Shown piece after piece: positions 4,808 to 48,598 of a stretch of DNA of 64,000 nucleotides. Numbering within the stretch: the first letter of the stretch is position 1; each line of letters starts with the position of its first letter. The position numbers were made by a program, and so were the translations under genes. The DNA comes from Xenorhabdus japonica (GTDB lineage: Bacteria; Pseudomonadota; Gammaproteobacteria; Enterobacterales; Enterobacteriaceae), in the NCBI RefSeq assembly GCF_900115195.1, contig NZ_FOVO01000014.1, positions 1-64,000 of the forward strand, given 5' to 3'. The notes beneath the pieces are model-generated. The model searched no databases, was not told the DNA's origin, and was given only the letters and a program-made list of their open reading frames with translations.

Positions 4808-4841
4808 CCCCTGGTTACATAGTTAGCTATGTAACCAGGGG
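4808..4841 (-). terminator. Terminator of pirAB
   Basis: A perfect 15-bp stem (CCCCTGGTTACATAG with CTATGTAACCAGGGG) has a 4-nt loop. On the minus strand it is followed by TAATTTTTT, 17 bases beyond the pirB stop codon. It can fold on both strands, but the T-run supports termination of pirAB. Confidence 0.85.
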
Positions 4842-4857
4842 AGCTATTAGTCAGGTA

Positions 4858-6135: not shown

Positions 6136-6224
6136 GATTTTATTTTAAATCCTTAGTTAAATCGTGCTTTAGTTAGATAGTTATTAAATTAAAATCTGTT
6201 AGTTATAGATGGTTTTTCATCTTG

Positions 6225-6650
6225 TTACTTCTTATATCCAGTAACAAAGGCTCTTTTATCTGTATTGTTATAAATGACGACCTTGCTGTAATACACAGGG
6301 TTGCTCGGTGATTTTAATATTCCGTTCTCCCCTGCTTTCACTGTGATAGAGGAATCTTCAAACCATTCTGATGTGAAAGAATGAGACCAATAAGAAACAG
6401 CCTTAACTGATGATGCGGGGCCGGAATTAGCTACGTAGTAATTGGGACGTTTTTCGAGAATAATTGGTGTGTCAATTCTTATTGCCTCAATAGAAGAGTG
6501 TGGCTCTATTGTCATATCCTTATAAGGACTGACTGTAAGAGGTTCTGATGCTGGTGTGTTTGTATTATAAGTTAATGGTTCTGGATTGGAATCATTATCA
6601 CTTGTGACTGTAACGTTACTGTCATTTATATTTGTATTGATTTTACTCAT
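6225..6650 (-). CDS. pirA: PirA-like binary toxin subunit
   Basis: A 141-residue protein. Its C-terminal block 'SPSNPVYYSKVVIYNNTDKR' aligns with the corresponding end of Vibrio PirA (PDNAFYHQRIVVINNGASR), and a Pro/Thr-rich segment 'PASEPLTVSP' precedes the jelly-roll-like core. PirA is the small partner of the Pir toxin and resembles a carbohydrate-binding Cry domain III. The gene is promoter-proximal to pirB, with an 89-base gap and a shared terminator, so the two form one operon. The N-terminal 40 residues are rich in Asn, Ser and Thr and probably flexible. No transposase or plasmid gene adjoins directly, but an IS200 lies upstream. Confidence 0.88.
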   Translation of the reverse strand: MSKINTNINDSNVTVTSDNDSNPEPLTYNTNTPASEPLTVSPYKDMTIEPHSSIEAIRIDTPIILEKRPNYYVANSGPASSVKAVSYWSHSFTSEWFEDSSITVKAGENGILKSPSNPVYYSKVVIYNNTDKRAFVTGYKK

Positions 6651-7104
6651 AAGGTGTTATCCTATTTTAAAAATTTATTAAATATAATCCTGGGTTGTTT
6701 TTAATGTGTTAAATATTTATTTTACAGCGTTTTTACTATGGTTATATTATGTTAATATTTATGGTGGATTTCTCCTTACAGTTGAGATTTATTTTATTAT
6801 TAATAGTGAATCTATATATTATGACTGCGGATATTATAAACATATTGATATAGCAGGATGAAATATAAAAAATGTAAGTTTGATTTAAAAATTATACTGC
6901 TTATTGAAATGATATTATTAGCATGCGGATATTGTTAAAATTTATTAATGCGTGTGGATAAGTAATAATATGACTATTTTAAATAAGGTTGATAACTTTA
7001 TTAGTGCGAGATATAAATAGTGCTTTTATTAATCTCTTAAGATCTAATTCCCCGCCGCTTTCGGCGGGGTTCTTCATTATGGCTTTAGCCAGTTTAAGAA
7101 GCAT
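6651..7104. other. AT-rich pirA upstream region
   Basis: About 450 bases, strongly AT-rich, with no supported gene. It must hold the pirA promoter on the minus strand. A GC-rich hairpin at 7050-7069 (CCCCGCCG / CGGCGGGG, then TTCTTC) lies just before the IS200 and may be a terminator reading into it or part of its left flank. Confidence 0.5.
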
Positions 7105-7164
7105 AAGCTTCTTAAACATAAAACCACCCGCTATGCGAGTGGAGCTCAAGGGTTATAACAAGAA

Positions 7165-7231
7165 AAACACCTTTCCGTTACAATATAGATGTTCAAGCTA
7201 ATATATGTAACTAAAAGAAGGAAAGGTGTTT
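7165..7231 (+). promoter_or_regulatory. Stem-loop masking the IS200 tnpA ribosome binding site
   Basis: AAACACCTTTCC at 7165-7176 is exactly complementary to GGAAAGGTGTTT at 7220-7231, which contains the Shine-Dalgarno and touches the ATG at 7232. In IS200 a structure of this type is known to block tnpA translation. Confidence 0.75.
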
Positions 7232-7687
7232 ATGGGAATTAAAGCACAAAGCTCAGCCCATACAAAATGGCTCTGCAAATACCATATCGTCTTTTCGCCA
7301 AAATACAGACGAAAAGTTATTTTTGCGAGTTTACGTTCAAGTATAGGTGAGATTTTACAAAGCCTTTGTAAGTACAAAGGGGTAGAAATAATAGAAGGGC
7401 ATTTTATGCCAGATCATGTGCATATGTTGGTGAGTATCCCCCCGAAAATAAGTATACCGAGCTTCATAGAGTATTTGAAAGGTAAAATCTCACTGATGAG
7501 ATTTGATAATCACGCGAATTTAAAATACAAATTTGGCAATAGGAAGTTTTGGTCAGAAGGATATTATGTGAGCACAGTGGGGTTAAATGAAGCCACGATC
7601 CGCAAATATATCCGAGAGCAAGAAAAGCAATATTTAATGCAAGATAAATTGAGTACACGTGAGTATGAGGACCCCTTCAAGGGGTAA
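7232..7687 (+). CDS. tnpA: IS200 transposase TnpA (Y1 HUH)
   Basis: A 151-residue single-domain transposase. It shows the HUH metal-binding motif in 'MPDHVHMLVSIPP' and the catalytic Tyr region 'GLNEATIRKYIREQEKQY' near the C-terminus. 'KYHIVFSPKYRRKVI' is the usual N-terminal block of the family. The ATG at 7232 is chosen over a GTG two codons upstream because the latter lies inside the ribosome binding site. The gene is full length with no frameshift, so the copy may be active. Confidence 0.92.
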   Translation: MGIKAQSSAHTKWLCKYHIVFSPKYRRKVIFASLRSSIGEILQSLCKYKGVEIIEGHFMPDHVHMLVSIPPKISIPSFIEYLKGKISLMRFDNHANLKYKFGNRKFWSEGYYVSTVGLNEATIRKYIREQEKQYLMQDKLSTREYEDPFKG

Positions 7688-8013
7688 GCCAAAGCGGCAA
7701 TGACACTTTAGCTTGAACGAAGAGAAAGCGGCGTCGTTTAGGCGCGGTCGGTAACACGCCCTTATAGGGCTAGAGCAAACCACCCGCTATGCGGGTGGTT
7801 ATGATTACCAATTTCCCGGCTGGGGTGTATCTTCTACCAACGTAACCCATACATCTTTTTTTGTGTTCTCATGGTATTCCTATTATTTCTTAACTTTTTT
7901 CTAACTTAAAAAATTACAGCATAAGGGTGCCTATGCTCACACCTCTTTCTGGCTGCCTGTTATCTTTCGAATTAGCTATGTAATGAGAGATAGATTCGCT
8001 TCTCAAGTTTATT

Positions 8014-8880
8014 TCAGCGAACACCGCCCGTAATCAGTTTGACCTGATAGATTTTCGGATAATACTCAGAGATCTTCTTTTGATGCAGTTGCCAGCACAG
8101 GTAATTTACATCATGGTGGTGTGAATTGAATAATAGGCCAACAACACTGCCGCTATGGGCAACGTTCAAGCCATAAATACCTGTCTGTTCAACTAAATCC
8201 TTCAGTTGATGAAAACAGGGTTTCGGTAATATCGATTGGTTGGCGATGGCACTTAATGTACAGGCTTCTCCAAGTCGGTAATTATCATGCCGCTGATTTG
8301 CTGTATTAAATTGCAACCAGGCTTGTTGTAATAAAGAAACGTTATTTTGCAATTGTGATTGACGATCCTGCCGATGATATTCTTCCGTCAAAACGGTTTG
8401 TGGACTTTCCAGCAGCAAAATATCGATATCCGGTTGCCAATCGAAAGAAATTTGAGTTTGGGCGGTGAGATGATCAAACAGGGTTAATTGTCTGAATATC
8501 GTGCTGTCAGTGGGTTCCAATTTGACACAAAGTTGTGCCAGATCTGCGCTGCTCAATGATTTCCCTAATAATTTGGCGGTTGCTTGAGCGGTAGCAGCAA
8601 TATCCGCTGTGCTGCTGGCCATGCCTTTGGCGAGTGGAATTGTCGATTGATATTCAATGCGCAAGCCAGAAGTCAATTCGGGAGGCTCCTGCCAGTAATC
8701 CAAGAGTAAATTTACCATCTGGCGCATACGTGGGCGTTCATGTGGCGCAGGAACGCCTTCACTGACAGAAATACAGTTGAACCAGTTGATTGGGCAGGAG
8801 ATTAATTTTTCTCCACCAAATAGCCATCCTTGCAAAAGCTCTCCACAGGAAGCGGGGAAAGAGGCTTCAGCCATAGGCAA
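8014..8880 (-). CDS. pduX: L-threonine kinase (GHMP family)
   Basis: A 288-residue protein of PduX type, which phosphorylates L-threonine to L-threonine-O-3-phosphate, the precursor of the (R)-1-aminopropan-2-ol O-2-phosphate linker of cobalamin. The N-terminus 'ASFPASCGELLQG' is typical. 'PLAKGMASSTADIAATAQA' is the GHMP ATP-binding loop, and 'IYGLNVAHSGSVVGLLF' the C-terminal glycine motif. It overlaps cobD by 14 bases and is third in cobA-cobD-pduX, so the kinase and the decarboxylase using its product are translated together. In Salmonella pduX is in the pdu operon; here it is with cobalamin genes. A second start two codons in (8874) is possible. Confidence 0.88.
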   Translation of the reverse strand: MPMAEASFPASCGELLQGWLFGGEKLISCPINWFNCISVSEGVPAPHERPRMRQMVNLLLDYWQEPPELTSGLRIEYQSTIPLAKGMASSTADIAATAQATAKLLGKSLSSADLAQLCVKLEPTDSTIFRQLTLFDHLTAQTQISFDWQPDIDILLLESPQTVLTEEYHRQDRQSQLQNNVSLLQQAWLQFNTANQRHDNYRLGEACTLSAIANQSILPKPCFHQLKDLVEQTGIYGLNVAHSGSVVGLLFNSHHHDVNYLCWQLHQKKISEYYPKIYQVKLITGGVR

Positions 8881-9940
8881 AAACCTGCTGCATGGCTGCG
8901 ATCAGGCGCTGATTTTCCCATTCACTGCGTACGGCTACGCGATAGTAACGTGCGTCTAATCCTGCATAGTTCTTACAATGGCGAATTAACAACTGATGTT
9001 TAAGCAGGAGATGCCATAAATCAACATTGGGTTTATGGCAGCGGAAGAACAGAAAATTAGCCGATGGCGGCCAGACAGTCAGTTCAGGTAAAGCTGAAAG
9101 TTGAGTCCAGAGATAATGTCGCTGCGATTTTAGCCATTGATGTGTAGCAGCAATATAATCATGCTCGTCAAACAAAATCTCACCAATCCGAGCCGCAAAG
9201 GCGTTGATTGACCACGGTTCACGCCGATGTTTCATCTCAGCAATTCCCGCTGTATTTCCGCTGACTAAATAGCCCAAACGTAACCCGGGAATGGCGAAAA
9301 ATTTTGTCATTGAACGCAGTATATAAAGATGTTCAGTGACCACAATTTGGGGAATCAACCCTCGGTTATCAGGCAGAAAATCAATAAAGGATTCATCGAC
9401 AATCAGCGAGATCCCTTGTTTCTCACAATATTTCACCAGTGATTGCAAAAACTGGCTGTCTGGCATTAATCCGGTGGGATTATTGGGGGTGGCTATAAAA
9501 ATGCAATCGGGTTGGATGGTGGAAAGTGCATCTAACAGGCGTAAATCCGGTTGAAATCCAGTTTCTTCTGTTAACGGATAGTCGATGATTTCAGAGCCAA
9601 CTTGCTGCAAGGCTCGCCGATATTCGGCAAAACCTGGAATAAGCAGTAAAGCTCGCTTGGGATGGAGATAACGAGTAACGGCATAGATCAGTTCTGTTGC
9701 GCCATTGCCCGCCATCACTACCGCATTATCGCATTGATGAGCTTTTGCGATCGCCTGATGTAAATGACGATATTCCACATCTGGATACTTTTCGATATCG
9801 GCAAGACTATTTTTGATCAACGCCTTAACCCGTTCTGGTGCGCCCAGCGGATTGATATTGGCGCTGAAATCAATAAGCGTATTGGCGGGAAGACCATATT
9901 GCTCGGCAACGCCAAGGATATTGCCACCATGTTCACTCAT
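8867..9940 (-). CDS. cobD: L-threonine-O-3-phosphate decarboxylase
   Basis: A 357-residue PLP enzyme of the class II aminotransferase fold that makes (R)-1-aminopropan-2-ol O-2-phosphate for cobinamide assembly. The start 'HGGNILGVAEQYGLP' and 'DFSANINPLG' are CobD hallmarks. 'GNGATELIYAV', 'ATPNNPTGLMPD' and 'IVDESFIDFLP' are PLP-fold blocks, and the Schiff-base Lys lies in 'RSMTKFFAIPGLRLGYL'. The ATG overlaps the cobA stop (TAATG). The enzyme uses the product of the downstream pduX. Full length for the family. Confidence 0.93.
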   Translation of the reverse strand: MSEHGGNILGVAEQYGLPANTLIDFSANINPLGAPERVKALIKNSLADIEKYPDVEYRHLHQAIAKAHQCDNAVVMAGNGATELIYAVTRYLHPKRALLLIPGFAEYRRALQQVGSEIIDYPLTEETGFQPDLRLLDALSTIQPDCIFIATPNNPTGLMPDSQFLQSLVKYCEKQGISLIVDESFIDFLPDNRGLIPQIVVTEHLYILRSMTKFFAIPGLRLGYLVSGNTAGIAEMKHRREPWSINAFAARIGEILFDEHDYIAATHQWLKSQRHYLWTQLSALPELTVWPPSANFLFFRCHKPNVDLWHLLLKHQLLIRHCKNYAGLDARYYRVAVRSEWENQRLIAAMQQVFAYG

Positions 9941-10695
9941 TAAATTGCTCCGTCAGTGGGAAGAAAGGAGAGAGTTGCCCCCAGATTAACAACTTCACCA
10001 ATTACAATCAGTGCTGGTGCACGCAGATTCTGCTCTTCCGCTTTTGCAGACAGAGTTTCCAGTGTGCCTATAACGCTCTTTTGTTTGGGTTGACTGGCGT
10101 ACATGATCACCGCTGCAGGTGTTGCGGGGGATTTGCCATATAGCATCAGTTGTTGGCAGATCTCCATCAGACGGGTCATTCCCATCAGAATAATTAATGT
10201 TCCTTCCAATTGGGCGAGTATTTCCCAGTTCTGTTGTTCATTGCCCTGAGACGTATGCCCTGTTACGACATGGAAACTTGATGCGTGATTGCGGTGAGTG
10301 ACAGGAATACCGGCATAGGCCAATCCACCAATTGAGGAACTTATCCCCGGAACGACTTCAAATTTGATGCCATGTTGTGCCAATACTTCCGCTTCCTCTC
10401 CTCCGCGACCAAAGACATAGGGATCACCGCCTTTCAGGCGAACAACCTGTTTTCCCGCTTGTGCATGTTTTACCAGAATTTGGTTAATCTTTTCTTGTGG
10501 GATGGGATGATAATCATGTTCTTTCCCAACATTAATGATTTCACAATGATCAGGCACTTGAGCAATGAGTTCAGGGTTGACGAGACGGTCATGAACAATA
10601 ACATCCGCAAATTGAATACAATGTAGTCCTTTGACCGTGATTAAACCGGCATCACCGGGGCCGGCTCCCACTAACCAAACATTGCCTTTATTCAT
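9940..10695 (-). CDS. cobA: Uroporphyrinogen-III C-methyltransferase (SUMT)
   Basis: A 251-residue stand-alone SUMT that uses S-adenosylmethionine to make precorrin-2, the entry to corrin and siroheme. Motifs: 'VWLVGAGPGDAGLITVKG' at the N-terminus, 'VRLKGGDPYVFGRGGEEAE' and 'VVPGISSSIGGLAYAGIPVT'. Many enterics rely on the trifunctional CysG; here a monofunctional enzyme leads the cobA-cobD-pduX unit. The symbol follows the Pseudomonas SUMT name and does not mean the enteric adenosyltransferase. Its promoter should lie in the 10696-11486 spacer shared with cbiA. Confidence 0.92.
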   Translation of the reverse strand: MNKGNVWLVGAGPGDAGLITVKGLHCIQFADVIVHDRLVNPELIAQVPDHCEIINVGKEHDYHPIPQEKINQILVKHAQAGKQVVRLKGGDPYVFGRGGEEAEVLAQHGIKFEVVPGISSSIGGLAYAGIPVTHRNHASSFHVVTGHTSQGNEQQNWEILAQLEGTLIILMGMTRLMEICQQLMLYGKSPATPAAVIMYASQPKQKSVIGTLETLSAKAEEQNLRAPALIVIGEVVNLGATLSFLPTDGAI

Positions 10696-10915
10696 TGGAT
10701 TACCTCTATGGGTTTAAAATATAAATAATTAAAGAAATGGAAAAATATTCTCATCATGATAACTAAAACGGGATTTTATTTATTATAAAGGCTTGCCTAT
10801 TCTGTCTTATGCTTTAGTTAATTATCTTTCTAATAATCTTTTTTTGTATTTATGAATAGCGTTATATTAATCTCATTTTTTTGATAATTATTACTTCAAT
10901 ATGGTGTGGGATAAT

Positions 10916-30875: not shown

Positions 30876-31691
30876 TTAATCTTTGCCATACCTGGCGCGG
30901 TTAGGTGTACATCCAAAGCGTCGGCGATAACTTTGAGTGAAATAAGACTGGCTGGAAAAACCCGATTCTAATGAAATATCGGCGATACTCATTTCGCTAT
31001 TCAGTAATAATTGATGTGAGTAAAGAATACGTTGCTCACTGATCCAAGCTTTGGGTGAAGTACCATAGACACTGTTAAAAAGCTCCTTAAAGGAAGTCAG
31101 CCCCATACCGAATTCACGCGCGAAGTCATTTAATCTCCATTCTTTGAGATAATGAGCCTCCATAAATGTTTGCAGCCGTTCTACCTGACGATTGCTTAAT
31201 TTCCGCAGAATAGACATCAACAATGCCCCTTGATTACCCAAGGAAAGCAGTAATAATAACTCTTCAACTCTTAATTGAATCAACGCTGGAGGAGAATCAT
31301 GTACTAGTAAGTTGGCTAGCCCGCGAATGCTTTCCGTCAGCAAGGGAAATTGATTAAAAGGAACCAACCTATAAGCAGGAAACTCATGCCTCTCTATCTG
31401 ACTTAATAATGATCCAAAACGCTTTAAAAAATTGCGTAAAAACTCCATGTGTAAGGGTAACCACAATACCCGACAACTTTCTGTATTGGTTTTGGCTGCA
31501 TAGCTTCCAGGATGGGTAAAAAGGATCTCATTAGTTGTGATGTGATAAGTGTTTATGTAATCTTTCCACACCATTTCACCATCGAGTAAAATATACAGCC
31601 CTCTTTGTTTATGCTCCAGGATATTGAAATCCGGCATGGTTAATTGAACTGTGCAAATATTATTTTGATTTAAGCCCGTCGTCCTTTTCAT
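30876..31691 (-). CDS. AraC-family regulator, ExsA/VirF-like
   Basis: A 271-residue protein with an N-terminal ligand/partner domain and a C-terminal AraC DNA-binding domain. The last 60 residues ('WISEQRILYSHQLLLNSEMS', 'ADISLESGFSSQSYFTQSYR', 'RRFGCTPNRAR') are strikingly similar to ExsA of Pseudomonas and to LcrF/VirF, the activators of type III secretion. No secretion, chaperone or ExsC/D/E-like gene is in the window. A role as master regulator of a T3SS cannot be claimed; it may control other targets. The minus-strand terminator 385 bases downstream could end its message. Confidence 0.82.
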   Translation of the reverse strand: MKRTTGLNQNNICTVQLTMPDFNILEHKQRGLYILLDGEMVWKDYINTYHITTNEILFTHPGSYAAKTNTESCRVLWLPLHMEFLRNFLKRFGSLLSQIERHEFPAYRLVPFNQFPLLTESIRGLANLLVHDSPPALIQLRVEELLLLLSLGNQGALLMSILRKLSNRQVERLQTFMEAHYLKEWRLNDFAREFGMGLTSFKELFNSVYGTSPKAWISEQRILYSHQLLLNSEMSIADISLESGFSSQSYFTQSYRRRFGCTPNRARYGKD

Positions 31692-36668: not shown

Positions 36669-36772
36669 ATCTTAATATTATTGATTTAAAAGGATTTTAT
36701 TTCTGGATTTGTATGTTGTTTCTTACAACCTCAGTTTAATGTCCAGCCTGCTTTTTCATGGCATTCTTGCTT

Positions 36773-36813
36773 CATGAACACACAACTGACTTTTACGCCA
36801 TGAACACACAACT
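36773..36813 (+). repeat. Duplicated V start region
   Basis: CATGAACACACAACT occurs at 36773-36787 and 36799-36813, 26 bases apart. The first ATG opens only a 9-codon frame (MNTQLTFTP); the second starts V. Confidence 0.75.
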
Positions 36814-37549
36814 TACCGAAATAATGCGTTTATTGCGAAACATTATCCGAATAGGAGTTGTTTCCGAAGTAGATACCACAAGAGGTATGTGTCGGGTTGC
36901 GACAGGTGATCTGAAAACCGACTGGATACAGTGGCTGACATCCAGAGCGGGGAATTCCCGCACATGGTGGGCACCCAGTGCTGGTGAACAGGTTTTATTA
37001 CTGTCTATAGGCGGAGAGCTGACCACCGCCTTTGTATTGCCAGCGATTTTTTCAAATGGACGTCCGGCACCATCAATCTCTCCTCAAGCAACGCATATTG
37101 AGTTTCCGGATGGTGCAGTGATGGAGTATGAGCCGCAATTAGGAGCATTGACTGTTAAAGGCATTAAAACTGCAAAAATTGAAGCTTCGGATTCCATTGA
37201 GATGACTGCGATGGATATCAAATTAAATGCTTATAAAGAGATCGGATTAAAGGCTGGTATGGAGATCGGATTAAAGGCTGGAAACGAGATCAAGTCGGAG
37301 GCTGGAAACAAGGTTGAATTAAAGGCTGGAAACGAGATTGGATTAGAGGCTGTAAAAGAAGTCAAGTTATCTTCTGAGAACGAAATCAAAATTGAGGCGC
37401 ATAAGCTTGAACTGAAAGGGGAGGAAGGAGAAATGCACGGCAAGATTAAACATTCTGGAGGCACATTCACTTCCAACGGCATAACTGTGGATTCCCATAA
37501 ACACTCCGGTGTTCAATCAGGCGGTGCAACCTCTGGAGGTCCAATATGA
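36800..37549 (+). CDS. P2-like baseplate spike V
   Basis: A 249-residue protein from 36800 (MNTQL, matching P2 gpV MNTL). 'WLTSRAGNSRTWWAPSAGEQ' and 'IEFPDGAVMEYEPQLGALTV' are V blocks. The C-terminus has imperfect 8-residue repeats (IGLKAGME, IGLKAGNE, VELKAGNE) forming a beta-helix-like shaft and a metal-binding His-x-His in 'DSHKHSGVQSGG'. It forms the membrane-piercing tip. The shaft is longer than in P2. Confidence 0.9.
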   Translation: MNTQLTEIMRLLRNIIRIGVVSEVDTTRGMCRVATGDLKTDWIQWLTSRAGNSRTWWAPSAGEQVLLLSIGGELTTAFVLPAIFSNGRPAPSISPQATHIEFPDGAVMEYEPQLGALTVKGIKTAKIEASDSIEMTAMDIKLNAYKEIGLKAGMEIGLKAGNEIKSEAGNKVELKAGNEIGLEAVKEVKLSSENEIKIEAHKLELKGEEGEMHGKIKHSGGTFTSNGITVDSHKHSGVQSGGATSGGPI

Positions 37550-37887
37550 TGTATTTGGGAATGAATCGGTACACAGGCCGAGAGTTGACAGATTTAGCAC
37601 ATGTCAGGCAATCCGTCAGCGATATTTTATTAACTCCTGTGGGAAGCCGTATTGCACGTCGTACTTATGGTTCTTTACTGCCTGAACTTATAGATTGGCC
37701 GCAAAATCCGGCAATTAGGCTTCAGGTTATGGCAGCCAGTTATACCGCAATCAGCCGTTGGGAGCCGCGGGTAACATTGACGTCAATTACGATGGAAACC
37801 CTACAGGATGGCAAAATGGTGGTGGATATTACGGGTACTTATGAGCAATCTGCCAAAGAATTTTCACTTTCTATTCCGGTGAGGTAA
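37546..37887 (+). CDS. P2-like baseplate protein W
   Basis: A 113-residue GpW/gp25-type baseplate wedge protein. 'VRQSVSDILLTPVGSRIARR' and 'YGSLLPELIDWPQNPA' are diagnostic. Overlaps V by 4 bases (ATGATG). Intact. Confidence 0.9.
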   Translation: MMYLGMNRYTGRELTDLAHVRQSVSDILLTPVGSRIARRTYGSLLPELIDWPQNPAIRLQVMAASYTAISRWEPRVTLTSITMETLQDGKMVVDITGTYEQSAKEFSLSIPVR

Positions 37888-37890
37888 GTC

Positions 37891-38799
37891 ATGTCAACCA
37901 TCGATTTAAGTCAGTTGCCACCCCCAAATGTGGTTGAGCCACTGGATTATGAACAACTGCTGGAAGAGCGTAAAAAAGGGTTGATATCGCTCTATCCAGA
38001 CGATCAGCAAGATGCCATTGCTCGCACTTTGCAACTGGAATCCGAACCTTTGGTCAAGTTGCTGGAAGAGAACGTTTATCGCGAATTGCTCTTGCGTCAA
38101 CGGGTTAACGAAGCTGCTCGGGCGGTAATGGTGGCCTATTCAACAGGCAGCGATTTGGATCAGCTGGGTGCAAACAACAACGTATCCCGCATGGTTCTGA
38201 TTCCTGCGGATAACTCCACCGTACCACCGACCCCTGCGGTGATGGAATCTGACAACGACTATCGTGTTCGCATTCCACAGGCCTTTGAAGGCCTGAGCGT
38301 TGCCGGCTCGGTTGGTGCGTATGAATATCATGCCCGCAGTGCGGATGGCCGTGTCGCTGATGCCTCGGCAATCAGCCCGTCGCCGGCTAACGTCACCGTG
38401 ACTATTATGTCGAGAGAAGACAAGGGCGTAGCTTCTAAAGAGCTGCTGGAAATCGTCGAAAAAGCGCTGAACGACGAAAACGTGCGTCCGGTGGCGGATC
38501 GCTTGAAAGTTCAGTCGGCCAGCATTGTGGAATATGAAATTGATGCAGTGTTGTACATCTTCCCGACACCAGAGTCAGAGCCCATTCACAAAGCGGCAGA
38601 GCAGAAGCTGAAACACTATGTCGAAACACAGCATCGCCTGGGCCGTGATATTCGTTTGTCAGCGATTTATGCCGCATTGCATGTGGAAGGTGTCCAGCGC
38701 GTGGAACTGAAAGCACCGTTGAAAGACGTGGTGCTGGATAAAACCCAGGCATCTTATTGCACCAAAACCAGCCTGACGATGGGAGGCTCGGATGAGTGA
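37891..38799 (+). CDS. P2-like baseplate protein J
   Basis: A 302-residue baseplate wedge protein. 'IDLSQLPPPNVVEPLDYEQL' at the start, 'VMVAYSTGSDLDQLGANN' and 'VGAYEYHARSADGRVADAS' are J blocks. It joins the baseplate edge with I. Overlaps I by 8 bases. Confidence 0.92.
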   Translation: MSTIDLSQLPPPNVVEPLDYEQLLEERKKGLISLYPDDQQDAIARTLQLESEPLVKLLEENVYRELLLRQRVNEAARAVMVAYSTGSDLDQLGANNNVSRMVLIPADNSTVPPTPAVMESDNDYRVRIPQAFEGLSVAGSVGAYEYHARSADGRVADASAISPSPANVTVTIMSREDKGVASKELLEIVEKALNDENVRPVADRLKVQSASIVEYEIDAVLYIFPTPESEPIHKAAEQKLKHYVETQHRLGRDIRLSAIYAALHVEGVQRVELKAPLKDVVLDKTQASYCTKTSLTMGGSDE

Positions 38800-39400
38800 T
38801 CGCCTTTTACCAATGGGTTCGACCCAGCTGGAAATTGCGGCGGCCAAAGCCTGCGCGGAATTGCAGAAGATCAAAGTGCCGCTACGTGAACTGTGGAACC
38901 CAGACACCTGTCCGGCATCACTGCTGCCTTATCTGGCATGGGCATGGTCAGTCGATCGTTGGGACGAGAACTGGCCTGAGAGTACCAAGAGGAAGGTAAT
39001 CAAAAGCTCGCTATTCCTGCACAAACACAAAGGAACAATCGGAGCAATTCGACGGGTTGTTGAGCCATTGGGTTATCTCATCCGTGTAAAAGAGTGGTGG
39101 CAAACCAACGATGTACCGGGCACCTTCCGGCTGGATATTGGTGTGCTGGATAGCGGTATCACCCATGAAATGTTCGAAGAACTGGAAAACCTGATTTTTG
39201 ATGCCAAGCCAGTCAGTCGGCATTTGATTGGGTTGGACATCAATCTGGATACACGTGGTAAATATCACTACTCGGCGGTGACTTACAGTGGTGATGAATT
39301 GACAGTTTACCCTTATCTCCCGGAACAAGTAACAGTATCCGGATTGGAAGTTGTGGGGGTGGGCGTACATATTATTGATGACATGAGGATTAGAGCATGA
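38792..39400 (+). CDS. P2-like tail protein I
   Basis: A 202-residue protein. 'LLPMGSTQLEIAAAKACAEL', 'CPASLLPYLAWAWSVDRWDE' and 'KHKGTIGAIRRVVEPLGY' are I-family blocks. It links baseplate and fibre. Overlaps H by ATGA. Confidence 0.92.
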   Translation: MSDRLLPMGSTQLEIAAAKACAELQKIKVPLRELWNPDTCPASLLPYLAWAWSVDRWDENWPESTKRKVIKSSLFLHKHKGTIGAIRRVVEPLGYLIRVKEWWQTNDVPGTFRLDIGVLDSGITHEMFEELENLIFDAKPVSRHLIGLDINLDTRGKYHYSAVTYSGDELTVYPYLPEQVTVSGLEVVGVGVHIIDDMRIRA

Positions 39401-40509
39401 GTACTAAATATTTTGCGCTGTTGACGCAGCTAGGTGCAGAGAAATTGGCGAATGCCACGGCATTGGGGACTAAAATTGAAATTACCCATATGGCCGTCGG
39501 TGATGGTGATGGCAAGTTGCCGACACCGGACACCAAACAAACCAAACTGATTAATGAAAAACGTCGTGCGGCGATTAACACGCTGAGCATTGATCCTAAA
39601 AACACCAACCAGATCATTGCAGAGCAGGTTATTCCTGAAAACGAAGGCGGCTGGTGGATCCGTGAAATCGGCCTGTTTGACAAAGACGGCATTTTGATTG
39701 CCGTGGGTAACTGCGCGGAAACCTACAAACCCCAATTGCAGGAAGGTTCCGGCCGGACTCAGACTATTCGCATGATTTTGATTGTCAGTAGCGCTAACGC
39801 GGTGACATTGAAAGTTGACCCATCTGTGATTCTGGCAACACGTGAATATGTTGATGATTCCATTCAGAAACACGCGAACAGTCGTAACCATCCTGATGCA
39901 ACGCTGAAAGAGAAGGGATTTGTGATCCTGAGCAGCGCAGTGAACAGTAATAGCGAAACTCATGCAGCAACATCAAAAGCGGTAAAAGAGGCTAACGATA
40001 ATGCTAATACCCGTCTAGAGAAAAGCAAGAATGGCGCAGATATTCCAGACAAAAATGAGTTTGTGAAAAACCTCGGTTTGCTGGAAGGTTCAACTTTACC
40101 GGTTGGTGTGCCTGTTCCGTGGCCGTCAGAAATTCCACCGGAAGGTTGGTTTCAATGCAACGGTGACTTATTTGATAGAGAAAAATACCCGAAACTGGCT
40201 CTTGCCTATCCATCAGGTAGATTACCGGATTTGAGGGGGGAATTTATTCGTGGTTGGAGTGATGGAAGAGATGTTGATGTTGGGCGAACTCTTCTTTCAT
40301 CACAAAATGATTTACTTAAGGCGCATGATCATTTTTTTAGTCAAACATGGGGGGCAACGGGATTTGACAAAACAAGTGGGGGGTACCTTGTTGGTGCGGA
40401 TGTAGGTGGTTCTGTGACCAATGCGAGGTCTATCCCAACTAATTCTTTCGGGGGCATCGAAACTCGCCCACGTAACATTGCATTTAACTACATTGTGAGG
40501 GCTGTATAG
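39397..40509 (+). CDS. P2-like tail fibre H
   Basis: A 370-residue fibre. The conserved N-terminus 'KYFALLTQLGAEKLANATAL' and 'VAVGDGDG'-like block (HMAVGDGDGKLPTPD) match P2 H. A tail-collar-like domain follows 'VPVPWPSEIPPEGWFQCNGD', and the end is 'RPRNIAFNYIVRAV'. The Gin-type crossover core lies at residues about 223-230 ('VKNLGLLEG'), the border between constant and variable parts. The host-binding tip is therefore exchangeable in design. Confidence 0.9.
   Translation: MSTKYFALLTQLGAEKLANATALGTKIEITHMAVGDGDGKLPTPDTKQTKLINEKRRAAINTLSIDPKNTNQIIAEQVIPENEGGWWIREIGLFDKDGILIAVGNCAETYKPQLQEGSGRTQTIRMILIVSSANAVTLKVDPSVILATREYVDDSIQKHANSRNHPDATLKEKGFVILSSAVNSNSETHAATSKAVKEANDNANTRLEKSKNGADIPDKNEFVKNLGLLEGSTLPVGVPVPWPSEIPPEGWFQCNGDLFDREKYPKLALAYPSGRLPDLRGEFIRGWSDGRDVDVGRTLLSSQNDLLKAHDHFFSQTWGATGFDKTSGGYLVGADVGGSVTNARSIPTNSFGGIETRPRNIAFNYIVRAV
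40061..40086. promoter_or_regulatory. Gin/Cin-type DNA inversion crossover site in H
   Basis: Core AAAACCTCGGTTT (40067-40079) with flanks that match 21 of 26 positions of the Mu gix site as I recall it. It lies at the constant/variable border of the fibre gene, where such sites are found in Mu and P1. Confidence 0.65.
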
Positions 40510-41113
40510 TGACTAAAGCAGAATTGAATAGCGAATTCATAATTCATCGCAATGGTGGCCGATAATATCACAGTGTTCAATTACAATGGTGAATCGCGTG
40601 AATATCTTTCTTCCTCTGTGGAGTTATTACCTGTCGGTGTTGGCAATTCCTGCACACTCTTGTGTTGATAAGCCAGGTGAAAACAAGGAGGGTTATGCGA
40701 TTTGCCGTTCGAAGGATCTGTTAAGCTGGGAGTACGTTATTGATCACCGGGGTGAAACGGTGTATGACATTGAAACGGGTGAAACTTGGGTGATTACAGC
40801 TCTCAGCGATTATCCATTAGGCACAACCCCAAATGCACCCGCTACACAATTCGATAAATGGGATGGTAAGCGGTGGGTGACAGATAATCAGGCACTAAAA
40901 GCGGACCATATCAGACGAGCGGAACAGCAAAAATCATCACTGCGACAACAGGCAGGCATTGCTATTGCCCTGCTACAGGATGCTGTTGACCTCGACATGG
41001 CAACCGACGAAGAGAAAGCTGCCCTCCTTGCGTGGAAGAAATACCGTGTCCTGCTCAACCGGGTTGATTGCTCGACCGCCCCCGATATCGCATGGCTTGA
41101 ACAGCCAGAGTGA
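40509..41113 (+). pseudogene. Tail fibre assembly gene (Tfa / P2 G-like), two frameshifts
   Basis: Three frames together give a complete Tfa-like protein: MTKAELNSEFI from a GTG at 40509 overlapping the H stop, then MVADNITVFNYNGESREYL and SSSVELLPVGVG from 40552, then IPAHSCVDKPGENKEGYA to the stop at 41113. The first break coincides with a tandem duplication of AATTCAT (40534-40540, 40541-40547); removing one copy restores NSEFIAMVADNITV. The second break is one extra A near 40644. The gene product would normally fold the fibre tip. The longest intact frame (40586-41113) lacks the N-terminus. Confidence 0.8.
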
Positions 41114-41116
41114 TTA

Positions 41117-41141
41117 CAGGGGCATAATGCCCCTGATTTTT
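41117..41141 (+). terminator. Terminator after the Tfa gene
   Basis: AGGGGCAT / ATGCCCCT stem then GATTTTTGT. Confidence 0.75.
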
Positions 41142-41203
41142 GTATTAGTCGTGACTTGATCTGACAATTCCTAAAAAAGTGTATAACTAATTGTTATTTC
41201 TCA

Positions 41204-41992
41204 TTAGAAATCCCTGATTTCTTCTTGTAATTTCCTTTGTTTTTGGTTCCAAATAGAATCTTCTGGCATTTGAACACGAACATCCAAGCGGCAACAATCA
41301 GGAATATCACAAGGCTCTCCATCAGTATAATAAACCTTCTTATCTTCAATAATCTCTTTTATTCGCCAATTCTGAAACCGTTCAGGCAAATGTGAATACT
41401 GACGGTGGAAAGTTTCAATCATGATAGAACCATCTATTTTTACTTTGTCATCAATGTAAACCAGTTCCAGCCCATTATTATTTGTTGGTGATGAGATACC
41501 TCCGTGTACACCCCATGCACTGTCAGAATTATAGCCTAGTACACCAGAAATTTGATAATGGCCAATACCAGATTTAGTAACAATAGCACCTTCTGATTCG
41601 TTATTAACTATGAACTTACCATCAGGGTATATTTCTATTATCGGGGAAGATACTCTGAGACGTCCAGCAACATCTGGTTTAGCATTCCCTTCATGATAGA
41701 CTTTATGTCCTCTGACTCGAAGATTGTCAGATTTAAGGCTCATCCATTCAGTTGTACCTCTTCTAGAGAGGCTATGCTGCCATTTGAAATATTCATTACC
41801 ATTATCCCCTGTTCTAAACCACATGTAGGAGTCTGTATCGCCGTCTCCTGTGTTTTTAAAACCAATAGCGGCCATATCAGTATTTCTATGCCAAGCTATT
41901 TCAGTGTCAGTCGAAATAGTGATATTCCCTGTCACCTCGCCCCCACTACGTTGCAAGGCACCAGCCGCTAATTTTTGGGTTTCCGCTAAACC
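41204..41992 (-). pseudogene. Inverted tail fibre 3' segment
   Basis: Read on the minus strand it is fibre-like: 'NVGLAETQKLAAGALQRSGG', 'VTGNITISTDTEIAWHRNTD', 'MWFRTGDNGNEYFKWQHS' and 'KVYHEGNAKPDVAGRLRV'. It has no start of its own. The longer ORF to 42082 begins in antisense gpD sequence, which creates a false signal-peptide-like N-terminus. It opens exactly at a Gin-like crossover half-site and lies opposite to H, as an alternative fibre tip in an invertible cassette would. No matching assembly gene follows it. Confidence 0.7.
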
Positions 41993-42006
41993 GACGTTAG
42001 AAAACA
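41981..42006. promoter_or_regulatory. Degenerate Gin-type crossover at fibre/D junction
   Basis: On the minus strand TCGGTTTA and GGAA match the right half of the site in H, while the left half diverges and belongs to gpD sequence. About 17 of 26 positions match gix. Confidence 0.5.
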
Positions 42007-42791
42007 TTGTGAGCACGATTGCCACGAGAAACCAACTGAAATTTAAAATCAGTGAGGAATTAAAAGGCATCTCCATGCACATCGATCAGACTAACGAATC
42101 TGACGTGAGTTTCCTGACTCGTATAGCAAAACAAGAAGGGGCAATTGCTTCCGTCAAAAATGGTGAGTTGTTGTTTGTTCGACAAGGACAAAATAAAACG
42201 GCGAGTGGTCAGGATATTCCGCCTGTGCTGATTATTCGTCAATCTGGGGATAATCACCGTTTCTCTTTGTCTGATCGTGAAGCCTATACCAGCGTCGTTG
42301 CTCAGTGGCAGGATACTCGCATAGCCATTAAACAGACGGTTAAATTGAAACGGGCAGAGTCAAAGAGCGGAAAAGTTGAAATTATCGTCGAATATAGAAG
42401 CAGCGAGAGTAAATCATTAGGTAAGAATGCTTATCAAAAAGACAAAAATAAAACAACAACGGCACAGCAAGAATCTGCAAGTTATTTGACCGGCACTCAG
42501 GAGAATGTTCTGACGCTTTCCCGCGTTTATTCTAATAAGGAAAATGCAGAGCGTGCCGCCAAAGCTGTTTGGGAAAAAATGCAGCGGGGGGCAGCGCAGT
42601 TTTCTATCACATTGGCGAAAGGATGTGCAGATATCTACCCTGAAACACCCATCCAGCTAAAGGATTTTAAACCAGAGATTGATGGAACTCATTGGACATT
42701 GGTGAAAGTAACTCACAATCTTAACGACAGTGGCTTTACGACATCATTGGATCTCGAAATTAAGATTGATGATGTCGAAATAAAATATTGA
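41994..42791 (+). pseudogene. P2-like tail protein D, 5' truncated
   Basis: The frame matches P2 D from 'TLENIVSTIATRNQL' (P2: TLGAIVEAIATRNRL) to the end: 'IDQTNESDVSFLTRIAKQEG', 'VKNGELLFVRQGQNKTASGQ' and 'FTTSLDLEIKIDDVE'. About the first 125 residues are missing, replaced by the inverted fibre piece. D forms the baseplate hub, so the loss is disabling. FI, FII, E, T and U, which normally precede D, are also absent. Confidence 0.85.
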
Positions 42792-42810: not shown

Positions 42811-42860
42811 GTATATTGTTCACCAGACGAGACAGTGTTATTTCAAGAAAGGTGAACGAT

Positions 42861-43097
42861 ATGATTAAGTGTCCTCTGTGTGGTCAGTCAGCGCATACTC
42901 GTAGTAGCTTTGAACATTCAAGCCAAACAAAGGAGCGCTATAACCAATGTCAGAACATCAATTGTGGAGCAACGTTTGTTAGCCATGAAACCTTTGTACG
43001 TTTCATCTCTAAGCCAGGTGAAGTCCAGAATGTTACGCCACATCCAAAGGCAAAAACCAAGAGACAACCTCGCCAGAAAGTGGCTACCGTGCAGTAA
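42861..43097 (+). CDS. ogr: Late-gene activator Ogr/Delta-like zinc finger protein
   Basis: A 78-residue protein. Cys pairs in 'MIKCPLCGQSAHTRSS' and 'RYNQCQNINCGATFVSHE' form the Ogr zinc finger, and 'VRFISKPGE' continues as in P2. Ogr activates P2 late promoters by contacting RNA polymerase alpha. The start at 42861 matches P2 (MFHCPLC); the longer ORF includes leader DNA. It has an AAGGTGAAC site. Intact despite the loss of tail genes. Confidence 0.9.
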   Translation: MIKCPLCGQSAHTRSSFEHSSQTKERYNQCQNINCGATFVSHETFVRFISKPGEVQNVTPHPKAKTKRQPRQKVATVQ

Positions 43098-43743: not shown

Positions 43744-44220
43744 ATGAAAAAATATCTATTTCCTTTAGCGGCGTTGATGGTATCGACTTCTGTTTTTGCG
43801 GATAAAAAACCTGTAGATGTAGCACCTTATCCTGCGGCTTCTGAGGGAATGATACGCAGTGTGATTGAACTTCCTCAGAAAGAGCATGAAAACAACTACA
43901 TGGTTGAGTTGATGATTGGCAAGGATATAAAAGTGGATTGTAACCATCATTGGTTTGGTGGCAGGTTGGAGACAAAAGTATTGGAAGGGTGGGGATATAA
44001 TTATTATGAGCTAAATAAAGTCTCTGGCCTCGTTTCAACAAAAATGGCATGTCCAAACAAGGAAAAAACGGTACGCTTTGTTCAGGTTAATTTAGGTAAA
44101 GATGCGGCTGTACGCTATAACAGCAAATTACCTATTGTGGTATATACACCAAATTCGATGACAGTCAAATATCGTATTTGGCAGGCATCGGATGAAGTAA
44201 AGGAAGCAGTAATTAAATAA
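43744..44220 (+). CDS. eco: Ecotin, periplasmic serine protease inhibitor
   Basis: A 158-residue protein with a signal peptide (cleavage after SVFA), then 'VAPYPAASEGMIRSVIELPQ' and 'RYNSKLPIVVYTP'. The reactive loop reads VSTKMACP, whereas E. coli has VSTMMACP, so the P1 residue is Lys instead of Met. The two Cys of the conserved disulfide (VDCNH and MACP) are present. Ecotin inhibits trypsin-fold proteases and can protect bacteria against host proteases. Lys at P1 should favour trypsin-like targets. A terminator follows. Confidence 0.93.
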   Translation: MKKYLFPLAALMVSTSVFADKKPVDVAPYPAASEGMIRSVIELPQKEHENNYMVELMIGKDIKVDCNHHWFGGRLETKVLEGWGYNYYELNKVSGLVSTKMACPNKEKTVRFVQVNLGKDAAVRYNSKLPIVVYTPNSMTVKYRIWQASDEVKEAVIK

Positions 44221-45358: not shown

Positions 45359-46381
45359 ATGGAACGTTTTGACATAGAAGAAGTGTCTAGTAAAATTCTA
45401 GATGAGTTACTGCAATACCGACGTCGTTTCCCTGAATCTGAACATACACCTCAATATGAAGAGAAAAAGGTTTTAGAGGTTCAATTGCCACGTATTCGTG
45501 CATTTGTGGAACAAGGGAAACCTATTGAATGTATTTTGCCTGCATTTCCGACAAAATCACCAAACCCTAGAAAAGTATTGGGTAAGATGCCGGATATGGC
45601 AGAAAAATTATCACTGATTTTCCTAAACTCCCTTTGTCAGCGTATTCAGCTTTATTATCCACCTGGAGCAAATATTGTTATTTGTTCTGATGGACATGTT
45701 TTTAGTGATCTTATTAATGTTGATGATGAAACAATTACCCATTATCAATTAGAAATTGAAAAACTGTTGCATGAACTTGGCGCGACTCATCTGTCGGTTT
45801 TTAATCTTGGGAATGTTGAATCACTAACTCAATATACCAGTGATTACGATCGACTGCGTGAATTATTGGTTAGTCGCTATGCATCTTCAGTTGAGGAGAT
45901 CAAAGAAACACTCAAAGAAAGCGAAGATGGAGTTCGATTATATCGGGCGATTACTCGTTTCCTTTATGAAGATAGTTTATTACCAGAATACACAGGTTCG
46001 AAAAATGCGTTGCAAAAGGATGCACGTCAGCGCGCTGTCGGCGTTATCCAACGTAGCTGGGCGTGGGGTAATTTGCTGGCGGAGCAGTTCCCATTGGCGA
46101 TCCGTCTTTCTATTCATCCACAGCCCGTCGACAGTATCAAAATTGGTATTCATATGATGCCGACCCGGGATGATTGGTTGACGCCGTGGCATGGTGTGGC
46201 TGCCAATATTAATGGTCAGTTTGTGTTGATGAAAAGTGATGAAGTGAAAAAAATGAATGGAAAGCTAATCGAAATTCGGGGTATTCCAAGTCATTACTTG
46301 ATTGAAACATTATCTGAAGAAAAACTGTTTGAAGAAAACCCGCAAACAGAATTCCAGACGACAGCAGCACAAGCAGAATAA
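45359..46381 (+). CDS. isnA: Isonitrile synthase (IsnA/PvcA family)
   Basis: A 340-residue protein. '[20 protein letters not shown]' and '[20 protein letters not shown]' are hallmarks of PvcA/IsnA enzymes, which build an isonitrile on tyrosine or tryptophan with ribulose-5-phosphate carbon. '[18 protein letters not shown]' near the C-terminus also fits. With isnB and a glycosyltransferase it forms the three-gene cluster described for rhabduscin in Xenorhabdus and Photorhabdus, which here means the tyrosine-type substrate is probable. AGGAAT precedes the ATG. Confidence 0.92.
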
Positions 46382-46401
46382 CTCAGTGGCATAGTGCATT
46401 T

Positions 46402-47286
46402 TTGAGGGAAAAAATCATGAATACATATGAACTTGATTGTCATATAGAGTTGGTGAAACCTTTCGGAGTATTTATTACGCCTAAGCATCCTGATCAGGAT
46501 ATTACCACACTGTCAATTGATGCCTTGCGTGAACTGGCTCGTACTCATCTGCTGGTTGTATTACGTGGCTTTCGCTCCGGCTTTACGGATAAAGAAAAAT
46601 TGACGGAATATTCCAATCGCTGGGGTGAAATCATGATGTGGCCATTTGGTACTGTATTGGATGTCATGGAGCATCCCGAACCATCTGACCATGTTCTGGA
46701 CAGTAGTAATGTACCGTTGCATTGGGATGGAATGTATCGAGAGACGATCCCTGAATTTCAGATATTTCACTGTGTTTCTGCTCCCGAAGCTGCTCAGGGA
46801 GGACGTACTACATTTGTCAACACTGAACAATTGATTATCGATGCCAGTGATGACGAGCGCAATACATGGAAGAATACCACCATTACTTACCGCACAAGCC
46901 GAGTGACACACTATGGTGGTGAAGTTGTTTCACCGTTGGTTTGTCTGCATCCCGACGGTAAAAAGTGGGTGATGCGTTACAATGAGCCGATGGGAAAAGA
47001 AGATACGAAGTATGCTGATCATCACTCTTTGAAGATAGACGGAATATCACAGGAAGAGCAACAGACACTTGAGGAAACATTGTATAACCGGTTGTATGAT
47101 CCGCGTTATTTTTATGCTCATCAATGGCAGTCTGGAGACATCGCGATTTGCGATAACTTCACTTTATTACATGGACGTGAGGCCTTTATTTCCCATTCTC
47201 CTCGCCATATTCAGCGGGTTCATATCCATGGTATGCCTGTGTGTGAAAATCACAGCTTTCGCACTATTTCTGTTTCCGGTTCCTGA
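46402..47286 (+). CDS. isnB: Fe(II)/2-oxoglutarate oxygenase (IsnB/PvcB family)
   Basis: A 294-residue TauD/PvcB-type oxygenase; start 46402 or the ATG at 46417 (MNTYELD), the latter having GAGGGAAAA upstream. The iron facial triad is in '[10 protein letters not shown]' (His-x-Asp) and the distal His in '[10 protein letters not shown]'; the Arg for 2-oxoglutarate is in '[12 protein letters not shown]'. It desaturates the isonitrile intermediate to the vinyl form, with loss of carboxylate. It lies 20 bases after isnA. Confidence 0.92.
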
Positions 47287-47320
47287 TTGAGTAGAAGTTG
47301 TCTTGAAGGAGGTTTGATTA

Positions 47321-48598
47321 ATGTCTCGTATTGTTTTAGCTACTGTTGCAACTCCTGGTCATGTTTTTCCAATCTTCACTATTGCGGAACATTTAATAGG
47401 GCAGGGACATGATATCACGATATTCAGTGGAGCCCTTTTTCAACAGCAAACGGAAGCGTTGGGAGCTACTTTTGTTCCCTTCGATAAGCAAGTGGATGTT
47501 GATTACCGCTATCTTGAAAAATACTTTCCTGAACGGGCAGAATATCCGCCGGGAAATACCCAGATGGCGCTGTCGTTAAGGCGGTTTTTTGCTACCCCTA
47601 TTCCCGTATTATCGAAGCAGTTGATGCAAGTACTCGAAGAGAGACAAGCTGATCTTCTGATTATCGACAATACTTTTTATTCAGCGTTGCCGCTATTGCA
47701 GAAACCGGCTGATGAACGTATTCCTGTCATTGCTATTGGTGTTAGTCCGCTGCCGTGGTCATCAAGGGATACCATATTCTGGGGACCTAGAATTCCACCT
47801 GAATTATTGCCTGCTGATTTAACACGTGAGCAATTAGTGGATGAGGAGACGCATCAATTAATCGAGCTGGTCAGGGAAGCATTCAATCAGTCGCTTGCTG
47901 CCGTGGATTGTGCACCACTGACTGGGGACCATAACGATGTTTTGATGAGCGGAGTTGATCGTTACTTGCAACTGGCAACACAATCATTTGAATTTCCACG
48001 TGATGATTTACCTGAGACGGTGGATTTTATCGGATCATTGCCAGTGAAAGTGAAAGATGATGAAACGCAAATCAGTTGGCCGGATGAAAACCTGCCGTTG
48101 ATCTTGGTGACCCAGGGAACACTGGCTAATATTGATTTTAGTCAGTTGATATTGCCGACTTTACGTGCGTTGGCAACTTTGCCGGTTCGGGTATTGGCAA
48201 TTACAGGCGGCCGTTCTATTGATGCTTTGGGAGAAGAAATTCCAGAGAATGCCAGAGTGGTCGAGTATCTCAATTTTGAACACTGGCTTCCTCGCACATC
48301 AATTTTTATTACTAATGGTGGTTATGGTTCGCTGAATTCTGCCATTCGTCATGGTGTACCTTTGGTGGTCGCGGGAACGGGAGATGGTAAATTGGAAGCT
48401 GTCGCTCGTGTTATCTGGTCACGTTGTGGTATCAGCCTGCATACTGATACACCGAGTGAACAGCAATTATACAAAGCAGTGACAAGGATATTATCTTCCC
48501 CGATATGGCACCAGCAGTCACAAATCATTAAGGCAGATTATGATGCCCATAATGCTTTGGCATCAATAACACGTCACATTAACGAATTGATTGCTTAA
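47321..48598 (+). CDS. Glycosyltransferase of the rhabduscin-type cluster
   Basis: A 425-residue GT1/MGT-like enzyme. 'LATVATPGHVFPIFTIAEHL' is the acceptor-side N-terminus; 'VTQGTLANIDFSQLILPTLR' and 'FITNGGYGSLNSAIRHGVPL' form the nucleotide-sugar binding C-domain. In the known cluster this enzyme attaches an amidosugar to the vinyl isonitrile. It lies 34 bases after isnB with AAGGAGG, so all three are one operon. Full length. Confidence 0.88.
   Translation: MSRIVLATVATPGHVFPIFTIAEHLIGQGHDITIFSGALFQQQTEALGATFVPFDKQVDVDYRYLEKYFPERAEYPPGNTQMALSLRRFFATPIPVLSKQLMQVLEERQADLLIIDNTFYSALPLLQKPADERIPVIAIGVSPLPWSSRDTIFWGPRIPPELLPADLTREQLVDEETHQLIELVREAFNQSLAAVDCAPLTGDHNDVLMSGVDRYLQLATQSFEFPRDDLPETVDFIGSLPVKVKDDETQISWPDENLPLILVTQGTLANIDFSQLILPTLRALATLPVRVLAITGGRSIDALGEEIPENARVVEYLNFEHWLPRTSIFITNGGYGSLNSAIRHGVPLVVAGTGDGKLEAVARVIWSRCGISLHTDTPSEQQLYKAVTRILSSPIWHQQSQIIKADYDAHNALASITRHINELIA

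Follow-up and report, generated by a model that had tools for sequence, protein, structure and literature searches.

The xenorhabdicin locus of Xenorhabdus japonica, in a stretch of 64,000 nucleotides analysed as a whole (the window; contig G000:C39 of a Xenorhabdus genome assembled into 92 contigs and 3.56 Mb), carries the scar of a deletion that joins a crossover site of its tail-fibre genes to the interior of gene D. The locus is a P2-type tailocin with an invertible tail-fibre segment. We consider it likely that the deletion was made by a Gin-family recombinase acting at a quasi-site in D, most likely the invertase whose gene lies beside cheZ elsewhere in the genome, and that the event removed the enhancer of the fibre switch and probably left the switch locked.

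A hybrid site at the truncated end of gene D

The scar at 41981-42006 reads TTCCGCTAAACC GA CGTTAGAAAACA and fits a crossover site on its left arm only. An earlier interpretation made from the letters of this DNA (the sequence-only reading) had described it as a half-matching site, and relatives bear this out: the left arm and GA are those of their fibre-tip site, and the right arm is gene D. In the tip parent (stretches L014 and L026) TTCCGCTAAACC is followed by GA and then GGTTTT, and in the D parent (L011 and L014) TTATCATAAACA is followed by GA and then CGTTAG. The tip relatives L026 and L014 read ...TTCCGCTAAACCGAGGTTTT, the match of L014 spanning 26 bases only; L058 has a different left arm before AAACCGAGGTTTT, and L046 has a diverged site. 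The product combines the tip's C to the left of GA with the C of D to its right, so the exchange occurred within GA; it is confined to these two central bases, where Gin-family enzymes exchange strands. Among 38 D rows from other loci, many of which repeat one genome across two collections, none has the C to the left of GA, which is thus specific to the scar. The central GA is present in nine of these rows, as well as in the tip sites and D of L011 and L014.

The nearest named relative of gene D is that of X. vietnamensis (L011), which is 97% identical to the D of the window over the 263 residues matched. Its locus is undeleted, with the order H, silent tips on the other strand, a crossover site at 4802-4827, FI (sheath), FII (tube), E, T, U and D (9587-10807); FI, FII, E and U were named by Pfam, and T by position and size only. 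The X. vietnamensis D reads TTATCATAAACA GA CGTTAGAAAACA at 9985-10010, and the centre-to-centre distance in L011 is 5,183 bp (4814 to 9997), which puts the loss at about 5.18 kb, including residues 1-137 of D. Since the tip site and the quasi-site in D are in direct orientation, a single exchange between them deletes the DNA in between. The sequence-only reading was right that gpD has lost its front, which amounts to 137 residues by comparison with X. vietnamensis instead of about 125. It was wrong in taking the fibre tip to be fused to gpD: the two lie on opposite strands and share the site, and there is no fusion protein.

The same reading had FI, FII, E, T and U deleted, and this agrees with the relatives. 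The block that separates tip site and D in X. vietnamensis (L011:5090-9996) is without a match here, whereas 28 of 30 Xenorhabdus genomes match it, the exceptions being this genome and G024, which is 82% complete. When a 240-bp query spanning the junction was compared with the 30 genomes, 28 gave matches; outside this genome, these cover only the D side, only the tip side, or the two sides separately, so that none of the 29 other genomes matches across the junction. The exact 27-base junction is also absent from viral contigs.

A possible second scar was seen in X. bovienii T228 (L015, about 3145-3170), where half a crossover site, consisting of GA and the right arm, stands beside an enhancer-type spacer, with other DNA in place of the left arm. 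The open reading frame (ORF) to the left of this half-site has no Pfam match.

The breakpoint in D as a quasi-site

With a matrix built from 34 distinct half-sites of the genus, we scored every 26-mer of L011 between 4829 and the end of D, 5,953 in all. The breakpoint window in D ranks second among them, and first of the 395 that have a GA centre. The suggestion that Gin/Cin-type recombination at a quasi-site in D deleted FI to U therefore stands up well: the intact relative fits to the base, the exchange lies within GA, D shares the GA, and the breakpoint is the best GA-centred quasi-site of the stretch. Two simpler measures of likeness were set aside as undistinctive, namely the identity of the D window to P1 cixR, which 24 of 5,955 windows reach, and that of the D left arm to Mu half-sites, which 22 of 11,938 12-mers reach.

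Crossover sites in H and across the genus

The intact site in H reads TTGTGAAAAACC TC GGTTTGCTGGAA. Its core, AAAACCTCGGTTT, which the sequence-only reading had placed at the border of the constant and variable parts of the fibre, is present as the sole exact copy in the window, and an alignment with gix, as read from the Mu record, shows core and central TC to be equal. With its TT/AA ends, the H site is the only exact 26-bp site of its pattern in the genome, in which the bare core occurs at three places. (A count of matches to the 13-mer at three mismatches, 36 where a mean of 23 was expected, was uninformative and was not used.) A search of the 30 Xenorhabdus genomes with the pattern TTN5AAACCNNGGTTTN5AA gave 53 sites, spread over 22 of the genomes, whereas a reversed control gave 3. 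The centres are GA/TC in 48 cases, AA/TT in three, and AG/CT and CC/GG in one each. Four of the 53 sites start 36-44 bases from the start of a contig (G002:C87, C174 and C188; G015:C186), which would fit assemblies being interrupted where sites are repeated or flip.

Where a site is translated as NLGL, 29 of the 30 distinct contexts use CTC as the Leu codon (two of the 30 are from Mu, seven have a stop within 40 codons, and one genome may be counted twice). In the window, CTC accounts for only 71 of 565 CTN codons in 31 ORFs (12.6%), so the centre of the site is conserved as DNA.

In the X. japonica locus, sites in inverted orientation flank alternative fibre 3′ ends, the plus strand having TC at 40073 and GA at 41993. 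Cassette A, which comprises a fibre tip and an assembly gene, shares 92% identity across 1073 bp with a silent copy on the opposite strand in X. vietnamensis (L011 4067-3021), which means that the segment has been inverted since the two lineages separated. In X. vietnamensis the middle site (L011 4047-4072) has the centre AG and not GA/TC, and the silent cassette A there may therefore be unable to recombine with H.

A conserved invertase gene beside cheZ

As the sequence-only reading noted, the window has no invertase gene. The search of the genome for a gin or cin gene that it called for returned three PF00239 genes, all outside the window, of which one is Gin-like. This gene lies on C33 between cheZ and a sodium:alanine symporter gene (L031 7869-8447), and its frame is open; the other two PF00239 genes are less Gin-like. 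Its product is 69% identical to Mu Gin over 182 residues, and the best PDB matches are the DNA invertases 4m6f/3uj3. It has a QxxRL motif, aligned with that of Mu Gin, which we take to occupy the Fis-contact positions of Hin; the Fis-contact residues Q, R and L are all present. In Hin these residues are 151, 154 and 155, according to the accessible text of PMC3798978.

Copies at least 88% identical are found in 28 of the 30 genomes, and in 27 of the 30 they adjoin cheZ and/or the symporter gene. The median dN/dS is 0.025 over 275 pairs of 24 copies (L085, L087 and L088 were left out), and the gene is thus under strong purifying selection. The flanks of the 27 cheZ-linked copies, up to 1.5 kb, contain no crossover site (core with at most one mismatch). 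Conservation throughout the genus together with the lack of a site nearby calls for targets elsewhere. The cheZ region has no invertase gene in G021, G024 and G026. In G021 there are two copies in other places (L086 and L090; 88-89% identical), each with a crossover site about 50 bp upstream, and one of them follows, in stretch L123, a tail-fibre-like stub and a tail-tip-like gene, as judged by eye. A draw of 119 genomes across the family gave three matches at E 1e-90, one of them outside Xenorhabdus. No invertase gene adjoins the sites, either in the window or in the stretches around D fetched from relatives (L011-L026). The accessible part of a 2026 survey likewise reports that no xenorhabdicin locus has an invertase, and that all 97 genomes studied have invertases elsewhere (PMC13280938).

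Two further observations concern this gene. The G021 invertase genes L086 and L090 may have been donors of the orphan gene or may be related to it. Within the cheZ-linked gene, synonymous variation is lowest in codons 1-20 (0.19-0.24, against 0.30-0.45 in later tens of codons), which is where the enhancer lies in P1 cin, and which is odd for a gene that has no local sites.

An enhancer-like spacer next to the tip site

Hin-type inversion involves a 65-bp enhancer that has a Fis site at each end, lies about 100 bp from a hix site and can act from many kb away, according to the accessible text of PMC3798978. We searched for pairs of Fis-like boxes spaced 48 bp apart, with a consensus for Fis. 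In L011, L012 and L020 the best pair lies 88-89 bp to the right of the tip-side site, with a score at least as high as the best of 40 single-base shuffles. Twenty such spacers were fetched; in all 16 that have a GA-centred site the best pair is 87-89 bp from the site, scoring 23-26 of 30 points. The remaining four (L143, L144, L145 and L147), which have no such site and are outside this count, have best 48-spaced pairs of 22, 24, 20 and 23. On average, 48 bp is the best of 21 spacings (25.3), followed by 45 (24.3), and conservation is higher in the columns of the two boxes (0.94 and 0.83) than in those of the rest of the spacer (0.66).

When 241 kb were searched with a profile built from the 16 spacers, there were 24 hits at E ≤ 0.05 (best 4.3e-6), all of them on the first codons of invertase genes; they represent 22 distinct genes of 34 in the set, two being counted twice. 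In local alignments with invertase starts, each compared with 100 single-base shuffles, the score lay above all the shuffles for 15 of the 16 spacers when the L086 start was used, for 14 with the L090 start and for 7 with that of Mu. The weakest spacers were L132 throughout (3 to 6 shuffles) and L136 with Mu (20). In L020, seven non-overlapping windows score as high against an invertase start as the spacer does; in L011, L012 and L026 none does. The spacer thus appears to be a decayed gin-like gene start kept as an enhancer, with predicted binding of Fis.

The invertase genes themselves offer a comparison. The distance from the site to the start of the first box is 75-77 bp in Mu and in the G021 copies, and the second box scores 11 for Mu and P1 and 12 for the G021 genes. 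Among the cheZ-linked copies the first box is preserved, but the second scores 8-10 in 18 of 21 properly anchored rows (3 of 24 rows are mis-anchored), as expected if these copies no longer serve as an enhancer. In G021, where the cheZ-linked gene is absent, the box pair is degraded and the spacer stretch lacks a GA-centred site, and the box pair of G026 is the weakest of the 16. This decay of the boxes with absence of the enzyme is only suggestive: three of the four genomes without a GA-centred site in the fetched stretch (G011, G025 and G004) have the cheZ-linked gene, and G026 keeps sites.

In the window, a search for an enhancer-like element of this kind found none. These results bear on the earlier idea that the deletion froze the fibre tip in reverse. 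The reversal is not due to the deletion, as the tip beside the second site in X. vietnamensis is also on the minus strand; freezing is what would be expected once a site arm and the enhancer-like element close to it were lost. What is left of the fibre switch, without that arm and the putative enhancer, is probably locked.

Mechanism and alternative explanations

From these comparisons we infer that the site next to silent tip B and the direct, GA-centred quasi-site in D were brought together by a serine recombinase of the Gin family. Joining at GA would have cost the locus FI, FII, E, T, U and the first part of D, together with a Fis-type enhancer, which in relatives lies 87-89 bp from the site. 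The enzyme would most likely be the cheZ-linked Gin-type invertase, acting in trans.

Several points weigh against this mechanism. The right arm of the D window scores -10.1 by the matrix and the left arm 2.7, as against 14.5-17.7 for three real arms, and the matrix itself derives from a pattern that fixes TT and AAACC. By plain identity the D window agrees with Mu gix at 14 of 26 positions, and 29 of 5,955 windows do as well. The undeleted parents are stand-ins from X. vietnamensis and other species. Gin-type enzymes prefer inverted sites and are poor at deletion between direct repeats, so the event must be rare. With regard to the enhancer, the spacer profile does not reach significance at the start of the Gin-like gene of this genome (E 7.4), nor at the starts of gin in Mu (6) and cin in P1 (3.1), and the reverse search, with four phage-type invertase starts against L011-L026, was not significant either (three of five hits were in spacers, E 1.8 to 3.7). 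Finally, G026 has fibre sites and yet no cheZ-linked enzyme.

This last genome is among the observations that would suit Gin-type recombination by a different enzyme, such as a phage-borne invertase that has since been lost. Five genomes (G002, G010, G017, G023 and G027) carry invertases 72-76% identical to the cheZ-linked one in addition to it, and the G021 copies adjoin crossover sites, one of them near tail-like genes. We nevertheless regard another enzyme as unlikely, at about one third of the weight that we give to the mechanism above, because the cheZ-linked gene is the only Gin-like one in this genome, its frame is open, and its conservation without flanking sites leaves it in need of targets elsewhere.

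A slightly less likely alternative concerns the spacer alone, whose boxes could be promoter or Ogr elements of the FI operon and no enhancer. The late promoter of FI is expected within the spacer, and near the FI end there can be read a TGT-N12-ACA box, which we take to be Ogr-type. In addition, as noted above, neither Mu gin, P1 cin nor the invertase gene of this genome is matched significantly by the profile, and the search in the reverse direction gave nothing significant. Against this alternative stand the constant distance of the boxes from the site in all 16 spacers, the preference for a 48-bp spacing, and the position of every significant hit of the spacer profile on the start of an invertase gene.

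It is improbable that an ordinary illegitimate or microhomology deletion ended by chance in a crossover site. The parents do share TAAAC as well as GA around the join, and a dead tailocin can lose DNA anywhere, but the unbroken identity at the exchange point is the 2 bp of GA and not the TAAAC run, and three shared 12-bp words at two other places in the same stretches went unused. Chance would also leave unexplained why the join should bring together the centre of a site and the best GA-centred quasi-site. An assembly mis-join, although the genome is a 92-contig draft and crossover sites recur within genomes, is very improbable indeed, as the shared run is 2 bp, the join is inside a contig, the lost block is found nowhere else in the assembly though it is matched in 28 of 30 genomes, and the X. 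japonica locus described in the accessible part of the survey, at 12.2 kb, has about the length of the locus here (PMC13280938).

Recombination at the quasi-site in D, most likely by the cheZ-linked enzyme, is therefore the explanation that we favour. A broader picture, to which we give slightly less than an even chance, is that of a split fibre switch, in which the tailocin would retain the sites together with a Fis enhancer, itself the fossil start of an invertase gene formerly present there, an orphan Gin of the genus core would act in trans from beside cheZ, and the window would record an off-target deletion.

Features of the locus

The window contains genes for a CI repressor, DinI, X, a spanin, V, W, J, I, H, U, the remnant of D, and ogr. 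The sheath, tube, tape measure and complete hub of a functional P2-type tailocin are missing: the FI-to-U block is absent, D is truncated, and a tailocin with neither sheath nor tube should not assemble. The X. vietnamensis copy of the fibre assembly gene is silent and, by eye, likewise damaged. The first 118 bp of tip B match tips that adjoin sites in other species. The AraC-type and ogr-like genes probably mark the edges of the locus; genes of such kinds are named for it in the accessible part of the survey, in which the shortest xenorhabdicin locus is that of X. japonica, in agreement with the AraC-to-ogr length here (PMC13280938).

Coordinates of the scar, the intact site and the genes of the xenorhabdicin locus in the window
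Feature	Position	Strand	Basis or remark
Hybrid site, deletion scar	41981..42006		Left arm of tip site, GA at 41993-41994, right side of gene D
Intact Gin-type crossover site in H	40061..40086	+	Arms 40061-40072 and 40075-40086; centre TC 40073-40074
H, main tail fibre of xenorhabdicin, crossover site inside, carries tip A	39397..40509	+	Pfam Phage_tail_fib, Phage_fiber_2, Collar
V, W, J, I, baseplate genes, open reading frames intact	36758..39400	+	ORFs, Pfam
Cassette A (fibre tip and tail-fibre assembly gene U)	40087..41137	+	Inverted in X. vietnamensis; Caudo_TAP
Fibre assembly gene, frame disrupted relative to X. vietnamensis	40510..41113	+	Gapped alignment; ORF covers 40586-41113 only
Silent fibre tip B	41204..41995	-	Phage_tail_C_2
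Gene D remnant, residues 1-137 gone	41995..42791	+	Phage_GPD
ogr-like late activator	42816..43097	+	Ogr_Delta
AraC-type regulator	30876..31691	-	About 12.2 kb from here to ogr

Two neighbouring features lie beyond ogr. An Ecotin-family protease inhibitor gene is at 43744-44220, with a similar ORF in X. vietnamensis (L011 11756-12232). At 45359-48598 DIT1_PvcA, TauD and UDP-glycosyltransferase genes stand in a row, forming an isonitrile-type cluster beside the tailocin that is presumably akin to the rhabduscin cluster.

Comparison with known systems

The accessible text of the 2026 survey describes fibre inversions in xenorhabdicins and suggests multi-site recombinases, naming no enzyme (PMC13280938); the words crossover, gix, hix and inverted repeat are not found in that part of the text. 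Among the matches listed in our literature searches (titles and the starts of abstracts, mostly outside subscription journals), there was no description of xenorhabdicin crossover sites, an enhancer or the cheZ-linked invertase. What is new here is the comparison of the parents at the level of single bases, a conserved candidate enzyme, and an enhancer-like spacer lost in the deletion. Together, the scar, the set of sites, the conserved cheZ-linked invertase and the enhancer-like spacer name a testable enzyme, its sites and a control element.

The locus resembles the xenorhabdicins xnp1 and xbp1 in its gene set, fibre variation and inversions, as far as these are described in the accessible part of the survey (PMC13280938), and differs from them in lacking the sheath, tube, E, T, U and the front of D. 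Like carotovoricin, it is a tailocin with an invertible fibre; the carotovoricin locus contains an invertase gene, whereas xenorhabdicin loci do not (both points as cited in the accessible text of PMC13280938).

The closest likeness is to Gin and gix of Mu, with an identical site core and central TC/GA, alternative fibre 3′ cassettes, and an enzyme that is 69% identical. In Mu gin, a Fis-like pair 48 bp apart starts 77 bp from the site. Unlike in Mu, the Xenorhabdus enzyme gene is not beside the sites, where there is at most a decayed 5′ stretch with boxes that begin 87-89 bp from the site. If this interpretation is true, the spacer comes from a gene in which the internal enhancer has remained under constraint although the function of the protein has moved elsewhere.

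For P1, the sequence record annotates the cix crossover between the two central bases and the enhancer inside cin, and Cin is reported to use secondary crossover sites rarely (Arber, in the accessible part of PMC4270481). The P1 centres are TT/AA, unlike the predominant GA/TC centres of Xenorhabdus, and the event described here differs further in being a deletion between direct sites, in a tailocin, and in having been found in nature. It would, if true, be a natural case of an invertase destroying the weapon that it diversifies.

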